Origin: Sphaerisporangium album
GTDB taxonomy: Bacteria; Actinomycetota; Actinomycetes; Streptosporangiales; Streptosporangiaceae
Reading direction: 5' to 3'
NCBI RefSeq assembly: GCF_003323745.1
Contig: NZ_QOIL01000004.1
Coordinates: 124,001 to 188,000 of the forward strand
Length of the DNA: 64,000 nt
The position numbers and the translations under genes were made by a program. Below, in pieces: positions 1 to 9,147 of this stretch. Below the pieces are notes generated by a model. The model saw only the letters and a program-made list of their open reading frames with translations. It was not told the DNA's origin and searched no databases. Within the stretch, counting starts at the first letter, position 1. Every line of letters begins with the position of its first letter.

Positions 1-1599
1 CCGGACGCCCGCGCCGAAGGTGAACCTGGTGTCGACGGTCGCGAACGAGACGTCCAGGTCGTGGACGACGAGCCCGCTGATCGGCGCGGGCGGCGGCATC
101 GCGCCGAATCGGGTGGCCAGCGAGTCGACGAGCTCCCCGACCGGGACCTCCTGGTCGGGGAAGCTCCGGCCCGAGAAGAACCATCCCTGCCCGGTCGTGT
201 AGGAGGCCATCACGCCGAGGCGGATTGCGAAGACCGCGAGCTCGGCGGAGGTGAGGAACTTCACGTCGGGGCCGTCGACGTTCAGCGAGAACAGCACGGC
301 CTGCAGGTCCACACCGTCGGCGACGGCCCAAGAGCCGGTCAGCTCCAGCAGGCCCGCCGCCGTCACCGGCCCGGTGCTCGGCTTGTCGATCGTGACCTGG
401 AACTTGTGGACGGCGAGGTCCGGCAGGTGGCCCGCCGCGTCGGAGCCGGTGAAGTCGCCGTAGATCTCGCGCAGCGTGGGGAAGGGGTCGCCCTCGCGCA
501 GCGCGCCCGAGAACGAGACGCCGTCGCCGAACTCGGCCGTCACCTCCAGCGTGCCGCGCGCGCCGATCGCGACCAGCCCGGTCACCATGACGTCGACCTG
601 CGGGCTCGCGGTCAGCGGGCCGTCGACCCGGAACACGACGTCCACGGCCTGCAGACGCAGCACGCCGGCGTCCCACTCCTGGGTGGTCTCCAGCGTGACG
701 GACAGGTACGGGATCAGGGTGGGCCCGCCGGGGTTCAGCGCGATCAGGACCTCGCTGAGCACCACTGGGGCGGTGATCTGGAAGTCGTCGCCGGGGATGG
801 CGAGGCCCGGCAGTCTCAGGAAGGCGGCGATGTCCGCGAACGCCGCCCGGCCCGCCTCGCGGAAGTCGCCGAGCAACAGGATCGGGTCGCGCCACGCGCC
901 GATCCGGGCGCTGATCAGGACGTCGTTGCGCTTGCCGTACGCGGTGAACGGCACGGCGCCGGTCACCGTCACCGAGCCGCGCACCGTGAGGTCGGCGCGG
1001 ATCGGGTCCATCTCCGGCTCGCCGAGGATCTCGTAGCGCAGGCCGTCGAGGGTGAACAGGCCGAGATCCAGGCTGTGTCCCGCCGGGCCGAACAGGACGA
1101 TCATCGGCACGGGGGTGACCTCGAAGCCCAGCGCCGGGATCTCGGCGATCATCGTGATCGTGCCGGTGACGTCGTGTTCGACCCCCGCGAACAGCAGATC
1201 CAAGGGGGCCAGCACGGTGGTGATGACGAGCTTGCCGGTGAAGGTCAGGTTGCCGGAGGGCGGCCGGCGGAGCACCGGGTCCTGGAAGGAGAGCGTCTCG
1301 AACATCCCCCGCGCGAGCATCGGGAACGCCTTCACGAACGTCCAGCCGCGCTCGCCCGTGCCGGTGATGTCGGTGCCGTCGGCGGCGAAGCGTGCGGTGA
1401 CCGCCATCCCGTCGAACGGCCCGCCGACCCCGACGCCCTCGACGGTGACCGCGTCGGCCGTCTCGCTGCGGTGGGCCCTGTCGAGGACGAACCTCGCGCC
1501 GAGGTCCCGCACCAGCGCGGGGTCCCCCAGATCGGCGGTGACGAGGTCGAGGCGCTCGCCGGTGAGGACGACGACGCCTCTGATCTGCTCGATGGTCAC
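1..1599 (-). CDS. N-terminal part of a large beta-rich uncharacterised protein (DUF6603-like), cut by the window edge
   Basis: The frame is open from a GTG at 1599 to the left edge, giving 533 residues without a stop. It has no signal peptide, membrane segment or Cys-rich region. The sequence alternates hydrophobic and polar residues with many short Gly turns and repeated phrases of the type VTGxVxFTxxG, as in long beta-solenoid or beta-sandwich proteins. The segment near residues 495-530 (SFPDQEVPVGELVDSLA, then PPPAPISGLVVHDLDVSF) recalls the giant DUF6603 proteins; that is memory, not a search. The GTG overlaps the stop of the upstream metallo-beta-lactamase gene in a GTGA, which fixes the start and shows translational coupling. 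It is the last visible gene of the five-gene unit. Function unknown; a structural or scaffold role is inference. Confidence 0.8.
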   Translation of the reverse strand, partial: MTIEQIRGVVVLTGERLDLVTADLGDPALVRDLGARFVLDRAHRSETADAVTVEGVGVGGPFDGMAVTARFAADGTDITGTGERGWTFVKAFPMLARGMFETLSFQDPVLRRPPSGNLTFTGKLVITTVLAPLDLLFAGVEHDVTGTITMIAEIPALGFEVTPVPMIVLFGPAGHSLDLGLFTLDGLRYEILGEPEMDPIRADLTVRGSVTVTGAVPFTAYGKRNDVLISARIGAWRDPILLLGDFREAGRAAFADIAAFLRLPGLAIPGDDFQITAPVVLSEVLIALNPGGPTLIPYLSVTLETTQEWDAGVLRLQAVDVVFRVDGPLTASPQVDVMVTGLVAIGARGTLEVTAEFGDGVSFSGALREGDPFPTLREIYGDFTGSDAAGHLPDLAVHKFQVTIDKPSTGPVTAAGLLELTGSWAVADGVDLQAVLFSLNVDGPDVKFLTSAELAVFAIRLGVMASYTTGQGWFFSGRSFPDQEVPVGELVDSLATRFGAMPPPAPISGLVVHDLDVSFATVDTRFTFGAGVR

Positions 1600-2837
1600 G
1601 AGTCCTCCGAGTCATCGCCCGAGCCGTCGTCGGCCGGGGCGCCGCGCGGGGGGTCGATGAAGTAGTCGAAGCGGCCGGTTCCGGTGCTCTGCAGCGGGAC
1701 CGTCATGTTGAGGTGCTCGTAGGCGAATCCGCTGCGCGAGGTGTGCTTGCGCCAGAAGTACACATCATGGGCGTCCACCTCGGCGATGTCCGCGCGGGCG
1801 TCCAGGTGGTCGTGGTAGCGCCACACCACCTCGCCGCGGGGCAGGTGGTTGGTCTCGACCGCCCGGCCCGCGCAGATGATCGCCATCTTCGGCTGGGTCA
1901 GGTCGATGAACGACTGCAGTGAGGAGGTGCAGGCGCTGCCGTGGTGCCCGACCTGGAGCAGGTCCAGGTTCCTGATGCGATCCCTGTGCCGGTCCATGAG
2001 GAAGGTCTCGGTGCTGTAGGTCGCGTCGCCGACGATGAGGATCTTCTCGTTGTAGACCTCGATCAGGGTGACGACGGAGCCCGCGTTGATGGCGTCCAGC
2101 CCGATCTCGTCGGCGTGGGTCTTGGGGACCTCCGCCGCGAGGATCGTCATCTTGCAGTCGGGTTCGTCGAGGATGCGGATCCCGCCGTCGACCAGGACGT
2201 CGATCTGGCCGTCCGCCGTGCGGGCCGGTACGTCCACCTTGGCCAGTTGCCGGCCGCTCCGATTGTTGCGGACGCGCCGGATGTCGTTCCTGGACGCGAC
2301 GTGCCGCTTCAGGAACTTGCGGGTCTTCGCGAAGCTGTATTCGCCGAGGGAGTCGCTGTGGTAGACCTTCCCGAACGTCACGTTGTCCGGGGTGAGCTGT
2401 TCGACCCAGCTGTAGTGGTCCCGGTCCGGATGGGTGAGGATCAGGATGTCGATCCTGCTGCCGCCGCCCAGGTAGATGTCCTTCTTGAGGATCGCCTGGC
2501 CGTCGCCCCTGGCCGACTCGCTCTCGCCGTCGGTGGAGACCGTCCCGCAGTCGATCATCACGGTCTTCCCCCGCGGGGTGGACATGATCGCGCCGTCGCC
2601 CTGGCCCATCTGCAGGAACGTCAGGTAGAAGACGCCGTCGCCGCGCCTGCCCTCGTCCAGCGGCACGTCCTCCTCGACGCGGCGCTTCTTGAGCCTGTCC
2701 TTGTCGGCAACGGCCTTCTCGATCTTCTTGGTCGTCCTGGCCCTGACGGCGTCCTCGACGTCGCCCCGGCCGACCGATTCGGTGTCGGACTCGGAGTCGG
2801 AGTAGCGATCGCGCTTGTCCCTGCGTAGGTTCTTCAC
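1596..2837 (-). CDS. Soluble ComEC/Rec2-like metallo-beta-lactamase-fold hydrolase
   Basis: 413 aa from a GTG start. Residues 1-65 are charged and disordered-looking (Ser/Asp runs, then a Lys/Arg stretch). The MBL domain follows: a GDG near 80-82, the metal motif THPDRDH (H136, D138, D140, H141), the bridging Asp in GDATYSTE (D271), and HHGS at 298-301. The GQGDG opening and the HHGS ending are typical of ComEC/Rec2-type domains, but there are no membrane segments, so this is a free-standing cytoplasmic version. The tail is acidic (DDGSGDDSEDS). It lies 6 nt downstream of the LamG gene and overlaps the next gene by 4 nt. Substrate unknown; nuclease or phosphodiesterase activity is plausible from the family. 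The complete metal ligand set suggests an active enzyme. Confidence 0.88.
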   Translation of the reverse strand: MKNLRRDKRDRYSDSESDTESVGRGDVEDAVRARTTKKIEKAVADKDRLKKRRVEEDVPLDEGRRGDGVFYLTFLQMGQGDGAIMSTPRGKTVMIDCGTVSTDGESESARGDGQAILKKDIYLGGGSRIDILILTHPDRDHYSWVEQLTPDNVTFGKVYHSDSLGEYSFAKTRKFLKRHVASRNDIRRVRNNRSGRQLAKVDVPARTADGQIDVLVDGGIRILDEPDCKMTILAAEVPKTHADEIGLDAINAGSVVTLIEVYNEKILIVGDATYSTETFLMDRHRDRIRNLDLLQVGHHGSACTSSLQSFIDLTQPKMAIICAGRAVETNHLPRGEVVWRYHDHLDARADIAEVDAHDVYFWRKHTSRSGFAYEHLNMTVPLQSTGTGRFDYFIDPPRGAPADDGSGDDSEDS

Positions 2838-2843
2838 CGCGCC

Positions 2844-5411
2844 TCACCCGGGAAAGTGGAGCTGCCAGCGGCCCTGGTTGACCCGTCCCTTCGGACGCCA
2901 GGTCCAGACGTACCTGCGGTCGTTGTCGAAGGGGTTGTAGTCGGCCGCGTAGGCGTACTCACCCTGTTTGACGTTGTAGAGGTCGAACTCCAGCTGCCCC
3001 GCCGCCAGGCGCTGCAGGATCCGCAGCTCGTTCTCTCCGATCGTCACGCCGCCGATGCGCAGGCTCGACACCACGGCCGTCACCCCGTTCAGTCCCCTGG
3101 CATAGATGTCGACCAGGTCGTCGGAGGGGAGGTAGCCGGTCTTGAACTGGAAGCCCTCCGGCCTTCCCTCGATCCGGTGCCAGAACTTGTTGCCGTGATG
3201 GAAGCGGATGCTGGGGTAGGTCACCGCGTCCCCCACGCTGGTGTCCTGGAAGAGCTCCAGGTAGAGGACCTTGCCGCCCCCGCCCGCCCCGGCCTCGCGG
3301 CGCAGTTGCAGGTGGCTTCCCGTGGTGCTGATCGTCAGCTTGCCGTCGTTCGCGGCGGTCGTGCCGATCCCCACGTTGCCCGCCACCGGTTGCAGCGCCA
3401 GCGGCTTCGCCCAGGACGACTGGAGCCAGATGTAATCGTTGTCGTGGCCGAACTGGAACTGCGAGGCCCGGTCCGCCGTCCCTCCGATGATCACCGCGGC
3501 GGTTCCGGAGGGAGCCGAGTTCGGGGCCGCGACGTGCAGTTTCGCCGCCGGGATAGGGGTGCCGATCGAGACGTTGCCCGTGCTCTGCGGGTTGAGCGCG
3601 AGATGGTTGCCCGGCGGCGAGTTGAGCCACGAGTAGCTCACGGCCTGGCCGATGTGCAGCGGGTTCTTCGCCGGGCCGATCGCCAGCGCGCCCGTGGGCG
3701 GGTCCTGCGGGGCGCTGAGGATGTGCAGCCTGGTCTGGGGGAGGGTGTTGCTCCCGCCGAGGCCGGCGTTCCCCGTGCCGGAGAACAGCAGCGGGGCGCG
3801 TTCGACCGAGACGGTCATGGCGCCGTCGGCGTAACCGGGGATGTTGCGGTACTCGACGACGATCGGCGCGTGGCCCGGCGGCTGCATCGCGAAGATCTCG
3901 CGGAGCCAGAGTTCGAGGAATTCGTCGGGCTTGAGAACGGTATCGGCGACGGGCGTGACCGTCCACTGCACCCGCTGGCCCCGGGAGGCCGCCGACACCG
4001 CCCAGCGGCCCCTGTCGGTGGCCTCCAGCTTGGCGTTGCCCGCCTCGCCCGACGAGGTCAGCGCCCACGGACGGCTCTCCTTGGGCTGCTGCACGTCGAA
4101 CGAAACCGTGAACGCCGATGCCGGGGCGCTCGCCCGCAGCGCGATTCCGGCGCCGTCGCGGAGCAGGTTCGTCAGGTGGATCCGCAGCTCGCTGGCGGTC
4201 CGGGGATCGTTCAGGACCCGGTCCCCGCCGACGAGCCGCAGGTCGATCGGCAGATCGCGGCGGCCCCGGTGGTTGACCACGTCCATGAACTGGAGCCGCG
4301 TTCCGGACAGCTCGTCCTTCTCGCCCCGGTAACGCAGTCTCCGGTAGTCCAGCTCGACCCGGGTGCCCCGGGTCCCGGCAGCGCCGTCGGCGTTCATGCC
4401 GGTGAACCGGACGCTCACCGACGTGCCCGGCGCGATCGGCTGGGGCGCCTTCCACAGCAGGTACAACGCGGTGCCGTCCGGGGCCGCCTGGAGCGCCCAG
4501 TCGGGCGTGGCGAGCGCGACCGGGAGGTTCTGCGGCAGGGTGCCCTTGCGGAAGCGCAACGCGAAGTGGAAGGACGTCGGCGACAGCTCCGTGACCGGCA
4601 CGACCTCCAGGTCGTAGCGGGAGGCGTTGGTGAGCGTGAGCGTCATCGGCTGGCCGCCGGATGCCTCGTCGATGTAGAGGACCGGCTGGGAGTCGGCGTT
4701 GACCAGCGCGAACTCGACCGGGTGGGTGCGGACGAACGACTCCAGCGCCGCCTCGTCGTCCGCCATGTCGTGCTTGATCTGGAGCTCGGTCAGCGCGTCG
4801 TCGTAGACCCGGACGTGCGCGGCCAGACCCGCGAAGTTCGGGTTCAAGCCGCTCAGCGCAAGCGGCGCGGGCTGCGGGACGGGATCGCCGCGCAGGGCCG
4901 CCTGGACGGCGAGCGCGGCGGGCAGGCGTGTCAGGTCCCGGTAGTTCAGCTGGGCCACCTGGACGCCGTTGAGGAAGATCCGCGAGAACTGCGCGTCCTT
5001 GGTGACCGCGAGGTGCGTCCACGTCCCGGCCGGGACGCCGCCCGCCGGGCCGGCATGCCCTTCGTCCGGACTGACCGCCGAGGCGAACCGATGGGCCGGC
5101 GAGCCGTCGGGATTCAGGACCAGCCGGACGCCGCCGTTCAGCGTGGCGAGCACCGTCACCGGGCCCCTGCGGACGGCGTCGGCCGGGTTGATCCAGGCCG
5201 CGATCGTGTAGGCGCGCAACGGCGGCAGGGGCGGCGAGAGCACCGCGTCGTCGAGCCCGTCGAACTTCAGGCAGCTCCCGAACCTTCGGTCGGGCAGGTT
5301 CGCCGGGTCGCCCTTGACCGCGCCGTTGAGGTGAAGATCCGAGGCGTCCAGGGCGCGGCTCTCCGGCGTGACGGCGTCCAGCGGCCAGTGCAGAAGCAGC
5401 CTGGCGCTCAT
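2844..5411 (-). CDS. LamG-domain protein with tail-fibre-like C-terminal repeats
   Basis: 855 aa with no signal peptide or TM segment. Residues about 5-215 form a LamG/concanavalin-like domain (LLLHWPLD, FDGLDDAV, YTIAAWINP, WTHLAVTKD, IFLNGVQVAQL). A long beta-rich middle follows. At about 550-690 there are two related units containing (R/K)LH(I/V)..AP, IGGT or IGPA, a W-L-(N/Q)-S phrase, LAL.P and then GNVSIGT or GNVGIGTT (the second at about 678). Such GNVGIGTT repeats are common in tail-fibre and S74-type proteins. The last 150 residues are aromatic-rich and resemble a receptor-binding tip. ATG start overlaps the upstream stop as ATGA. A carbohydrate-binding adhesin or fibre is the best guess; how it would leave the cell is not evident here. 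Confidence 0.85.
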   Translation of the reverse strand: MSARLLLHWPLDAVTPESRALDASDLHLNGAVKGDPANLPDRRFGSCLKFDGLDDAVLSPPLPPLRAYTIAAWINPADAVRRGPVTVLATLNGGVRLVLNPDGSPAHRFASAVSPDEGHAGPAGGVPAGTWTHLAVTKDAQFSRIFLNGVQVAQLNYRDLTRLPAALAVQAALRGDPVPQPAPLALSGLNPNFAGLAAHVRVYDDALTELQIKHDMADDEAALESFVRTHPVEFALVNADSQPVLYIDEASGGQPMTLTLTNASRYDLEVVPVTELSPTSFHFALRFRKGTLPQNLPVALATPDWALQAAPDGTALYLLWKAPQPIAPGTSVSVRFTGMNADGAAGTRGTRVELDYRRLRYRGEKDELSGTRLQFMDVVNHRGRRDLPIDLRLVGGDRVLNDPRTASELRIHLTNLLRDGAGIALRASAPASAFTVSFDVQQPKESRPWALTSSGEAGNAKLEATDRGRWAVSAASRGQRVQWTVTPVADTVLKPDEFLELWLREIFAMQPPGHAPIVVEYRNIPGYADGAMTVSVERAPLLFSGTGNAGLGGSNTLPQTRLHILSAPQDPPTGALAIGPAKNPLHIGQAVSYSWLNSPPGNHLALNPQSTGNVSIGTPIPAAKLHVAAPNSAPSGTAAVIIGGTADRASQFQFGHDNDYIWLQSSWAKPLALQPVAGNVGIGTTAANDGKLTISTTGSHLQLRREAGAGGGGKVLYLELFQDTSVGDAVTYPSIRFHHGNKFWHRIEGRPEGFQFKTGYLPSDDLVDIYARGLNGVTAVVSSLRIGGVTIGENELRILQRLAAGQLEFDLYNVKQGEYAYAADYNPFDNDRRYVWTWRPKGRVNQGRWQLHFPG

Positions 5412-5593
5412 GCGGGCTCCCCGGGGGCCTCGACCGGGCTCAGGCCGATCTGCGCCTGGGCCTGCTGCTGGATCGTTCCGATCAGCTCGTAGACCTGGGC
5501 GTACGGGAGCTGGCCCAGCGCGTCGAGGACGAGGTTGATCTCCGGGATCGACAGGGTCAGGGTCAGCCGCTGCTGCTGCATGCGCTCTCTCAT
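5408..5593 (-). CDS. 61-aa helical protein embedded in the unknown operon
   Basis: ATG at 5593 overlaps the stop of the 1185-aa gene (ATGA), and its own stop overlaps the ATG of the LamG gene (ATGA), so it is coupled on both sides and very probably translated. The sequence begins with basic and Gln residues, then LTLTLSIPEINLVLDALGQL, then PYAQVYELIGTIQQQAQAQI, and a short acidic, Pro-containing tail. The pattern L-x-L-x3-E-x-N-x-V-L...P-Y-x2-V-x2-LI-x2-I-x2-QA is one I associate with small proteins next to phage-type tail fibres (memory only). It predicts a beta strand followed by two amphipathic helices. An oligomerisation or adaptor subunit for its large neighbours is inference. Confidence 0.8.
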   Translation of the reverse strand: MRERMQQQRLTLTLSIPEINLVLDALGQLPYAQVYELIGTIQQQAQAQIGLSPVEAPGEPA

Positions 5594-8500
5594 TCTGGTT
5601 CCGGGGCTGCGCTGGGGGCCGGGGTGGGGGCCGGGTCGAGGGTCAGCCAGCCCTCGCGGAGGGTCGGCCGGGCGGGGAAGGCGGAGTCGGGGCGCGCCTC
5701 GGTCACCGGGACGGCCGTCCAGCCCGCCGGGGTGAGCTGCCGCCACGTCCAGGACCTGCCGGGCTCGGCCGGGACGGGCAGCGCGCCGGGACGGTCGGCG
5801 TCGGTGAGCATCGGGGCGGCGAAGAACGACGGGCGCAGGTCGGCCAGGACCGCGCGGTAGTGGTCGGGCGGGATCCGCAGCGCCTTGCATGGCAGGATCC
5901 CGCTGGTCAGATGGACGGGGGCGCGCGGGTCGACCAGCATCGTCAGGCGCCGGGGCGGCAGGTCCAGGGCCAGCTCGAGCTGCGGATCGCCGGAGACCAG
6001 ACGCAGCTCCGAGCCGTCCTCGGCGTCGTCCTTGGCGCCGCCTGCCGTGCCGTCCAACGCGCCGTCCGGCGTGCCGTCCTCCGCGCCGTCCTCCGTCCAG
6101 AAGCCGATCAGGCCGTCGTTCAGGCGCAGCCGATCGCCGATCCGGACGGGGAAGCGGACCAGCGGGAAGTCGTTGGACTCGCGGCTGGACCTGCGCATGT
6201 CCTGCCGGAACACGTTCCAGTCCTGGTGGATCGCCGGCAGGCCCATGAGCTGGAGGTCGATCTCGGCCCGGACGACGGCCAGCGCGACGCCGAACAGCGG
6301 TCCCTGCTCGTAGTCCTCGGGTTCGACGCCCGCCAGCAGGCCGTCGAGATCGGACAGGAGGGTCGCGAGCCGGTCGGGGCCCATCCGCGCCAGCCTCCGC
6401 GCGACATCACGCAGATGGTCGTTGCCGATCTGCCCGATCGTGCCGGTGGTGCCGCCCGGGGCGGGCCGCCAGCGGGCGAGCGCCGGGTCCGCCGGGTCCG
6501 GTACGGCGGCCAGCACGCCGAGGGCACGGCCCTCGGCGTCGTGCACGGCCAGGCCGTCGTCCAGGTCGTCCGGAACGATCCAGCCGCAGATCGGCGACGT
6601 CACCGGGACGTCGTTCATCTCCCGCAGGTCGTGGTCGGAGTCGAGCCAGCGGAACGCGAGCCGGGCCGGCTGGGACAACCGCGGGGGCATCGCGACCCAG
6701 TCGGGGTGGCCGCGGACGCGGAGCTGGGTCGTCGTGCTGATCCGCTCGACGTCCACGTCGAAGGGGATGCCGAAGCTGCCCACGATCCGCAGCCGCAGGA
6801 CGCGCAGCGCGCCCGCCCGGATCGGATTGAAGTCGCTCAGCGGGAACGGCGCGTGCCGGGTGTCGTCGCCGACCGCCTTCGCGACCCGGGACGCGAACGC
6901 CTGGTAGTCGGGGAAGCCCAGCGGGTCGGCGATCGGAAGCTGGCGGGTCAGGCGCCGCATGAGCAGCGCGTCGTTGAAGCCGCCCAGCACCTGGGACAGG
7001 TTGGCGTCCTCGTTCGCGCTCAGATGCCGGTAGATCGCGACGAGCGTCCTCAGCCGCCGGTCGTCGCCGTGCGCCTCGTACCAGGCCAGAACGGTCTCGG
7101 GTTCCCGCAGGAACTCCTCGGGTTCGACGGCCGTCCCCGTGGTGGCCTTGGTGTACGGCACGACGATCGTGCCCGCCAGGTAACGCAGCACCCGCGCGGA
7201 CAGAACGGGGCGGGCGCTCGCCGACAGCACCGTGGAGCCGGTGTAGACGTTGGCCGCCTTGCCAGGCACGTCGCGCAGCGGCTTGAGTTCCGGCTCGTCG
7301 CCCTGGAAGGCGTAGTTCCCGGTGATGTAGGTCCGGTCGTAGTTACGGTCGGCCGTGTCCAGGTTGTCGCCGAGACCGGCGGGGAAGAACTCGACCTCCC
7401 ACTGCAGCAGGACCGGATGCCAGGGCTGGCGCGTCCAGGTGTCCGCGCCGAGGCCCGTCCCCGACGCCCGTGCCCGCAGCTCGGTGAGGTCGGCCGGATC
7501 GGCCACCGGGACGGTCGCGCAGGGCAGCAGACCGCCGGGGTGGCCCTCGCCGTCCCGGCCGTAGCGGTCGCCGGGGGTGGCGGCCCGGCCGGTGAGCAGC
7601 ACGACGGGCTCGGACGGCAGGTAGTACTGCGGCGCCCCCACCCGGTCGGCGACGAAGGCCGCCTTGACCGGCGCGGCCTTCTTCGCGTTGAAGTCGTCGA
7701 GCGCTCCTTTCAGAGCGGTTTCGGCGGATTCGAGGGTCCACGCGAGGGTGTCCGGGGCCCCGCCCGGGTACGTGCCCGTGCGGGCGGTCAGGTCGGCGAG
7801 GTTCTCCATCCGGCGTTCGAGGAAGTGACGGACCTCGTCGGGGTCGGGGTAGGTGTCACGGCTCGTCTCGTAGGGGTAGACGCAGAGCTGGTACTTGTAC
7901 CAGTCCGCGAACAGTTGCTCGCGGGCCGACAGGAGCCGCTGCTGCTCCCGGTCGTACGCCTCCTGCGCCGTGTTCAGGGCGTTGAGGAGGTCGCCGATGC
8001 CGTGATCGAGCCTGAGCGCCTCCCGGAGCTGGCGCTGCTCGGCGGTGGCCTCGCCGTCGTCGCGGCGGATCGTCCACAGGACCCCGGACGGGACGCCCCG
8101 GAAGGTGCCCGCGTGCCGCGCCTCGGCCAGTCGCGCACCCACGTCCAGCGGCTTGGACTCCAGTTCGTCGGCGAAGGACAGGGCTTCGAGCAGGTTCTCC
8201 ACCTCGTCGGGGCCCTGGTCGGCGGCCAATCCGGGCAGGCTCGCGCCCAGGTGCCCGGCGAGCGCCTCGGTCGCGGTGGTGCCGACCCAGACTCCGGACT
8301 CGGCGTCGGGACTCAGCGGGGACACGGGGCCGGGGGCCGGCTGGAAGACGATCCGGGCATAACAGACCATGCGCTCAGGCTTGGGCCCGTCCTCTGCCGT
8401 GCCCTGTGCTACGGGCGCGGTCTGAGGCGCGGTCTTGGTTGCGGCCTTGGGCGCTGCCCATCCGAGGTCGGCGCCGAGCTTCTCCCGCCACTTCGCGTCC

Positions 8501-9147
8501 TCCATACCGGTCAGAGGATCCTGGTCGGCGTACCAGCCGAGGACCTCGTACGCCACGCCGGCGGGCGGCGGTCCGTCGAAGGCCGGATCATGGAAGCCGA
8601 ACACGCTGTGACAGTTCGGATAGAACGCCGCGAACGTCGGCTCCCCGTAGCCGACAGCCGAGAGCAGGGGGAGATGTTCCCCTGGCAGGTCCGCCCGCCA
8701 GGCGCCACGGGGGAGCGTCCGCCCAAGCCGCCGGAACGGCACCGGGCGATCCACCGGGTACGTGACACCCTTTCCTTGCTCGTCGAGGAAGTCGCTCTCG
8801 ACGACCCACTCCGCCTCGACCCTCCCCGCCCGGCTCCGCGTCACCAGCCAGCGGTTGGGCACGGCCCGTACCTGGGTCTTCCCGTCCTTGTCCTGGACGA
8901 GACGGGTCAGCCCGTCCGGCAGGGCCCAGTGCAAATGGACGCCGGGCTTCAACCGGAAATTCGTATCCTGAAACGGCGTAGACAGTATTTGCTCGGATAA
9001 ATACGGCGAATCGGACTGGCAGTCGTTCCCCGAAACCGGATCAACATACGGCAACCGACTGAAGTCCGCCGTCGCCTCCACCGCGTCCACCTGCGCACTC
9101 AGACAGAGCGCATCCACCTTGACCGGTACAACCAGAACCTGGACCAC
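5590..9147 (-). CDS. Very large uncharacterised protein (1185 aa), first gene of the unknown operon
   Basis: GTG start at 9147, with a GGGGGAG about 11 nt upstream. No signal peptide, TM segment, ATPase or protease motif. Near the N terminus it has the phrase LKPGVHLHWALPDGLTR and then WLVTR, both ordered and hydrophobic. Residues about 380-416 are predicted coiled coil (AQEAYDREQQRLLSAREQL). A 25-30 residue Asp/Gly/Ala linker lies near 1015-1045 and is made of repeats of the type DGxxDGAxDG. The rest looks like mixed alpha/beta or beta sandwich. I recognise no family of known function. Its first position, its size and the ATGA coupling to the 61-aa gene suggest the core component of the system. 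Upstream DNA at 9207-9245 is AT-rich for this genome and probably holds the promoter, but I see no clear boxes. Confidence 0.85.
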   Translation of the reverse strand: MVQVLVVPVKVDALCLSAQVDAVEATADFSRLPYVDPVSGNDCQSDSPYLSEQILSTPFQDTNFRLKPGVHLHWALPDGLTRLVQDKDGKTQVRAVPNRWLVTRSRAGRVEAEWVVESDFLDEQGKGVTYPVDRPVPFRRLGRTLPRGAWRADLPGEHLPLLSAVGYGEPTFAAFYPNCHSVFGFHDPAFDGPPPAGVAYEVLGWYADQDPLTGMEDAKWREKLGADLGWAAPKAATKTAPQTAPVAQGTAEDGPKPERMVCYARIVFQPAPGPVSPLSPDAESGVWVGTTATEALAGHLGASLPGLAADQGPDEVENLLEALSFADELESKPLDVGARLAEARHAGTFRGVPSGVLWTIRRDDGEATAEQRQLREALRLDHGIGDLLNALNTAQEAYDREQQRLLSAREQLFADWYKYQLCVYPYETSRDTYPDPDEVRHFLERRMENLADLTARTGTYPGGAPDTLAWTLESAETALKGALDDFNAKKAAPVKAAFVADRVGAPQYYLPSEPVVLLTGRAATPGDRYGRDGEGHPGGLLPCATVPVADPADLTELRARASGTGLGADTWTRQPWHPVLLQWEVEFFPAGLGDNLDTADRNYDRTYITGNYAFQGDEPELKPLRDVPGKAANVYTGSTVLSASARPVLSARVLRYLAGTIVVPYTKATTGTAVEPEEFLREPETVLAWYEAHGDDRRLRTLVAIYRHLSANEDANLSQVLGGFNDALLMRRLTRQLPIADPLGFPDYQAFASRVAKAVGDDTRHAPFPLSDFNPIRAGALRVLRLRIVGSFGIPFDVDVERISTTTQLRVRGHPDWVAMPPRLSQPARLAFRWLDSDHDLREMNDVPVTSPICGWIVPDDLDDGLAVHDAEGRALGVLAAVPDPADPALARWRPAPGGTTGTIGQIGNDHLRDVARRLARMGPDRLATLLSDLDGLLAGVEPEDYEQGPLFGVALAVVRAEIDLQLMGLPAIHQDWNVFRQDMRRSSRESNDFPLVRFPVRIGDRLRLNDGLIGFWTEDGAEDGTPDGALDGTAGGAKDDAEDGSELRLVSGDPQLELALDLPPRRLTMLVDPRAPVHLTSGILPCKALRIPPDHYRAVLADLRPSFFAAPMLTDADRPGALPVPAEPGRSWTWRQLTPAGWTAVPVTEARPDSAFPARPTLREGWLTLDPAPTPAPSAAPEPE

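Follow-up and report, generated by a model that had tools for sequence, protein, structure and literature searches.

A conserved six-gene cassette in Sphaerisporangium album that combines a DUF6603 protein, a LamG fibre protein and a soluble ComEC-type hydrolase

The analysed stretch of DNA, referred to as the window, comprises 64,000 nucleotides of contig NZ_QOIL01000004.1 of Sphaerisporangium album, whose genome has a size of 9.3 Mb and is 99% complete. Its left end is occupied by the minus-strand unit listed in Table 1. The first-pass annotation had described this unit as a coupled operon of five genes. The minus-strand unit is real, but the number of genes has to be corrected to six: following the left-hand gene beyond the window, as had been advised, revealed a G5 protein of 1429 aa and, overlapping its gene by 8 nt, the sixth gene G6. 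The distances at the junctions G1/G2, G2/G3, G3/G4, G4/G5 and G5/G6 are -4, -4, +6, -4 and -8 nt. Overlaps had been assumed at all four junctions within the window; those of 4 nt are indeed present at three of them, whereas G3 and G4 are separated by a gap of 6 nt. The start codon of G1 is GTG, which agrees with the starts of its orthologues. The gene past G6 has the convergent orientation. In line with the earlier annotation, neither signal peptides nor TM-like segments were found in the cassette proteins by simple hydropathy (maximum KD19 1.65).

Table 1. Genes and features of the cassette. Plain numbers are positions in the window; numbers following L014 are positions in that locus.
Feature	Position	Strand	Description
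G1, first gene	5590-9147	-	1185 aa; without known family
G2	5408-5593	-	61 aa; homologous to phage fibre/lysis-module protein
G3	2844-5411	-	855 aa; LamG, conserved middle domain, variable fibre shaft, conserved C-terminal domain
LamG (concanavalin A-like) domain of G3, residues 62-212	4776-5228	-	PF13385, 5.7e-18
G3 fibre shaft	3312-3767	-	GNVSIGT and GNVGIGT repeats at residues 612 and 678; limits approximate
G4	1596-2837	-	413 aa; soluble ComEC-type metallo-beta-lactamase (MBL)-fold hydrolase
G4 motif THPDRDHY	2412-2435	-	predicted metal ligands
G4 charged N-terminal tail, basic cluster	2652-2837	-	K/R cluster in orthologues
G5, part in window	1-1599	-	first 533 of 1429 aa; DUF6603 protein
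G5, whole gene	L014:4310-8599	-	1429 aa; ends 2690 bases (2.7 kb) left of window
G6, sixth gene	L014:2491-4317		608 aa; without known family; left of window

Three of the six products are large proteins. G1 and G6 have no match in Pfam, NCBIfam, PHROG or PADLOC, and profile searches of the PDB with G1, G2, G5 and G6 gave no credible relatives, the only hits of G1 being chance coiled-coil matches. The description of the 1185-aa product as a protein of unknown kind is therefore upheld. G5 had been labelled a huge beta-rich protein; its size is confirmed, and the label is corrected to DUF6603 protein (PF20248; E 3.7e-141 over residues 745-1212, 471.6 bits against a cut-off of 27). It is thus a full member of a Pfam family without function, with the difference that it belongs here to a fixed cassette. 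A search of a collection of open-access papers retrieved none on DUF6603 or PF20248, although a description elsewhere is possible. AlphaFold2 gave unusable models both for G1, run together with two relatives (pLDDT 30), and for a DUF6603 domain, run together with one (pLDDT 36).

The assignment of G3 as a LamG protein with fibre repeats is borne out by the PF13385 match, by LamG relatives in the PDB at 1e-17 and by the repeated GNVGIGT-type shaft, the modules of which differ in number between orthologues. G2 is without match in Pfam, NCBIfam, PHROGs and PADLOC. Homologues of G2 are present on 18 IMG/VR contigs (58-62 bits, falling to 20-23 bits once the motif that served as search seed is masked), in the neighbourhood of tail-fibre-like, holin and endolysin genes. 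A direct search of phage records gave no match for G1, G2 or G5, covering 50,697 records for G1 and G5, and no relative of G6 was found in IMG/VR. The phage matches of the cassette proteins are limited to G2 and to weak ones of the G3 shaft.

The order G1-G2-G3-[G4]-G5-G6 also occurs in 12 other actinobacterial loci (L036-L046 and L016 from Micromonospora rosaria), as expected if the orthologues stay together. A thirteenth locus, L015 from Actinophytocola oryzae, has the order G1-G2-G3-x-G5-G6. In these type A loci the G1 orthologues are 49-62% identical, and each of the 13 other loci with sequence has G2 placed between G1 and G3. The overlap of 4 nt between G2 and G3 is kept in 12 of the 12 relatives scored, that of 4 nt between G4 and G5 in 8 of 10, and that of 8 nt between G5 and G6 in 10 of 12. 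Position 4 holds a recognisable G4 in 10 of 12 loci. In L042 it is occupied by an MBL-like protein without Pfam match that, as read by eye, has lost the HPDxDH motif, in L015 by another MBL, in which THFDKDH can be read by eye, and L043 has no recognisable intact frame at this position.

Among 151 genomes of the same family, G1 is present in 25, G6 in 24 and DUF6603 in 39, and all three in 22. G1 and G6 occur together in these 22 genomes against 4.0 expected (p ~4e-21, uncorrected for phylogeny). The distribution is patchy, about one sixth of the genomes of the family carrying the cassette, and plasmid-borne as well as decayed copies exist. Divergence is correlated among G1, G3, G5 and G6 (r 0.82-0.95; 0.82-0.87 for G5/G6 and similar pairs), which is expected from common inheritance; G4 is the most divergent and least correlated gene (r 0.57-0.82). 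Apart from two isolated pairs, the 83 flanking ORFs are not shared between loci, so the boundaries of the cassette are the ends of the six genes. No shared promoter motif was obvious by eye. The gene order in 12 other loci, the kept overlaps and the co-occurrence of G1 and G6 demonstrate a gene coupling far beyond chance, and it is well established that the six genes form one conserved unit and travel together. A second, decayed copy of G6 has left its 3' end in the same genome (L091, 10269-10588); this remnant covers residues 503-606 in two frames and is not accompanied by any other gene of the cassette.

In a second layout the core genes are ordered G5-G6-G1; an MBL gene often precedes G5, and G1 is often followed by a fibre-like gene, X. 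Other genomes of the family carry this layout, as do plasmids of Streptomyces clavuligerus (pSCL4), Streptomyces sp. NBC_01276 and Embleya. Plasmids of Paenibacillus polymyxa and P. sonchi carry G5-G6-G1 without X; the Paenibacillus G1 is recovered by profile with an E-value of 5e-170. In both layouts the MBL gene stands directly before G5. Two plasmids carry X genes in tandem, whose N-terminal parts are 66% and 79% identical and whose C-terminal tips differ, a pattern of interchangeable receptor-binding tips. Homology between the middle domain of G3 and the X proteins could not be established (hhalign 3%). In L047 the protein after G1 contains the middle domain of G3 (5.5e-13). The C-terminal half of that protein (7783-10251 of L047, reverse complement) appears beta-propeller-like by eye and takes the place of LamG and shaft.

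The MBL domain of G4 matches PF00753 (1.2e-10) and the structures of ComEC MBL domains (2e-17). The protein combines the MBL fold with the HxxxDH motif, a later Asp and the HHGS motif of ComEC-type MBLs, and H136, D140, H141, D271, H298 and H299 are invariant in 11 aligned orthologues. With these complete metal motifs and no TM-like segment, the earlier designation as a soluble ComEC-type MBL enzyme holds. A K/R cluster is found within the first 30 residues in 10 of 11 orthologues as called, and in all 11 if an upstream ATG is used in L037; 10% of 248 background ORFs contain such a cluster. The tail of type A cassettes shows a KRKR-like basic cluster and in this respect resembles tails for nuclear localisation or nucleic-acid binding. 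A role as ComEC DNA transporter was rejected, since G4 reaches 61.7 bits with TIGR00361 against a cut-off of 190 and has no TM segment. The models of defence MBLs match G4 below their cut-offs (LmuA 2.9e-14, 6A-MBL 1.2e-10, RTasMBL 2.9e-10, Avs1a 4e-8); the scores are 41 bits against 220 for 6A-MBL and 32 against 420 for Avs1a. A further MBL relative is the phosphorylcholine esterase CbpE (3.5e-8). ComEC carries an MBL domain with Mn2+-dependent nuclease activity (PMC8579336), and several defence systems use MBL nucleases as gated effectors (PMC12799240). Because of its kinship with both, G4 is probably a DNA-cutting enzyme. Catalysis may nevertheless be dispensable, because the MBL-like protein of L042 has lost HPDxDH and G4 is the most divergent member of the cassette.

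Profile searches did not assign the unit to any described cassette. The trypsin-MBL modules of Avs1, Lamassu, Hachiman and DRT (PMC12799240) resemble it by a stand-alone ComEC-like MBL upstream of a large partner, but the cassette is without trypsin-like protease, NTPase, helicase and RT, and G4 remains far below the cut-offs. Membership in an MBL defence family (Avs1, Lamassu, 6A-MBL, DRT) was rejected on these curated cut-offs, and neither a trypsin-like protease nor an NTPase sensor domain was detected by profile in the six proteins. With the C-terminal MBL domain of ComEC (PMC8579336) G4 shares the fold and the metal motifs; unlike ComEC, it is soluble, has no membrane domain, bears a charged tail and is encoded in a different operon. 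Extracellular contractile injection systems and phage tail fibres resemble the cassette by a modular fibre, exchangeable tips, the absence of signal peptides and a small protein like those of phage fibre modules. In contrast to such injection systems, no sheath is encoded in the genome and no baseplate or tube family is represented among the six proteins. The suggestion of the first-pass annotation that a contractile injection system might be encoded at another place in the genome is not supported: the sheath family PF04984 has no match in the 99%-complete genome and does match in the controls E. coli, B. subtilis and Synechococcus. Membership in this class was rejected on the sheath test. The inner tube family PF06841 has no match in the genome, and the control genomes are likewise without match. 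These comparisons make the cassette a type of its own, with a weakly defined mechanism.

As a tentative reading, we suggest that the self-contained, mobile six-gene cassette encodes a fibre-bearing soluble complex with a nuclease-type effector, most likely for conflict with cells or phages. G5, G6 and G1 would form the conserved scaffold of one soluble multi-protein complex. G3, or X in the second layout, would be an exchangeable recognition fibre that carries LamG on a repeated shaft, and the small phage-like G2 may handle this fibre as an accessory. As effector, G4 would act as a ComEC-type metal-dependent phosphodiesterase or nuclease, which the complex would bring to bear on a target once the fibre has recognised it. 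The setting would be biological conflict with other cells or phages. Both the assembly of a complex and the role in conflict are suggested by the operon coupling, the modular tips, the patchy and mobile distribution and the decayed copies. Against this reading stands that the proteins are without signal peptide, TM segment and known export path by which a fibre could reach a target outside the cell.

An intracellular antiviral defence, in which the large proteins sense an infection and trigger G4 as MBL effector nuclease, is rather unlikely. The sub-threshold matches of G4 to defence MBLs, with LmuA as the best one, would fit such a function, as would the missing signal peptides and a patchy, mobile and plasmid-borne cassette; however, ComEC is nearer to G4 than any curated defence family, and NTPase, STAND, helicase and reverse transcriptase are absent, as is the trypsin-like protease with which MBL nucleases are paired in Avs, Lamassu, Hachiman and DRT (PMC12799240). 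Nor do the flanks of the loci have genes in common.

LamG domains usually bind glycans or proteins. This property, together with the relationship of G4 to CbpE and with carriers that are by genome type largely filamentous soil bacteria, would also suit a housekeeping or niche role. A large cytoplasmic or lysis-released complex would then serve surface, spore or polysaccharide, with LamG binding glycans and G4 cleaving a phosphodiester of a metabolite or wall polymer. We consider this unlikely, as the presence in only about one sixth of the family's genomes and the decayed copies are unlike a housekeeping function, and a secretion signal is missing. A domesticated phage tail or prophage remnant forming a tailocin-like particle is very unlikely: the phage kin of G2 and the fibre-like G3 would fit, but the genome has no sheath, the core proteins G1, G5 and G6 are without PHROG match, and the phage searches described above recovered no relatives of them, so a prophage or phage tail was rejected.

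The fibre-and-effector reading can be extended to a novel non-contractile protein machine that is built on DUF6603, G6 and G1, uses swappable phage-like fibres and a nuclease, and occurs in Actinomycetota and Bacillota with distant sister cassettes; this wider proposal is doubtful. If true, bacteria would possess a fibre-and-effector machine unlike the known injection systems and defence islands. The unit in any case places DUF6603, G1 and G6, three large families without function, in a shared context in which they can be tested together. Plasmid pSCL4 of Streptomyces clavuligerus ATCC 27064 carries a complete core copy, which makes the question accessible to experiments in a laboratory strain.

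In the distant cassettes L081, L082, L087 and L088 a DUF6603 gene is followed by a homologue of G6 (hhalign 96.5%, 8e-10) and a third protein of 1.2-1.6 kaa, for which no homology to G1 was detected. L087 and L088 also encode a protein with the motif DPLWxLxRQWQxGEFxGEDA. A DUF6603-like stretch is present in a haloarchaeon, on a plasmid of Natrinema gelatinilyticum (L083; profile E 2.4e-11). On p-YT9A of Paenibacillus polymyxa (L077, 213-3311) genes for DUF4280 and a VgrG-like baseplate V protein are situated upstream of the DUF6603 cassette at a distance of about 9-15 kb, which may be a coincidence.
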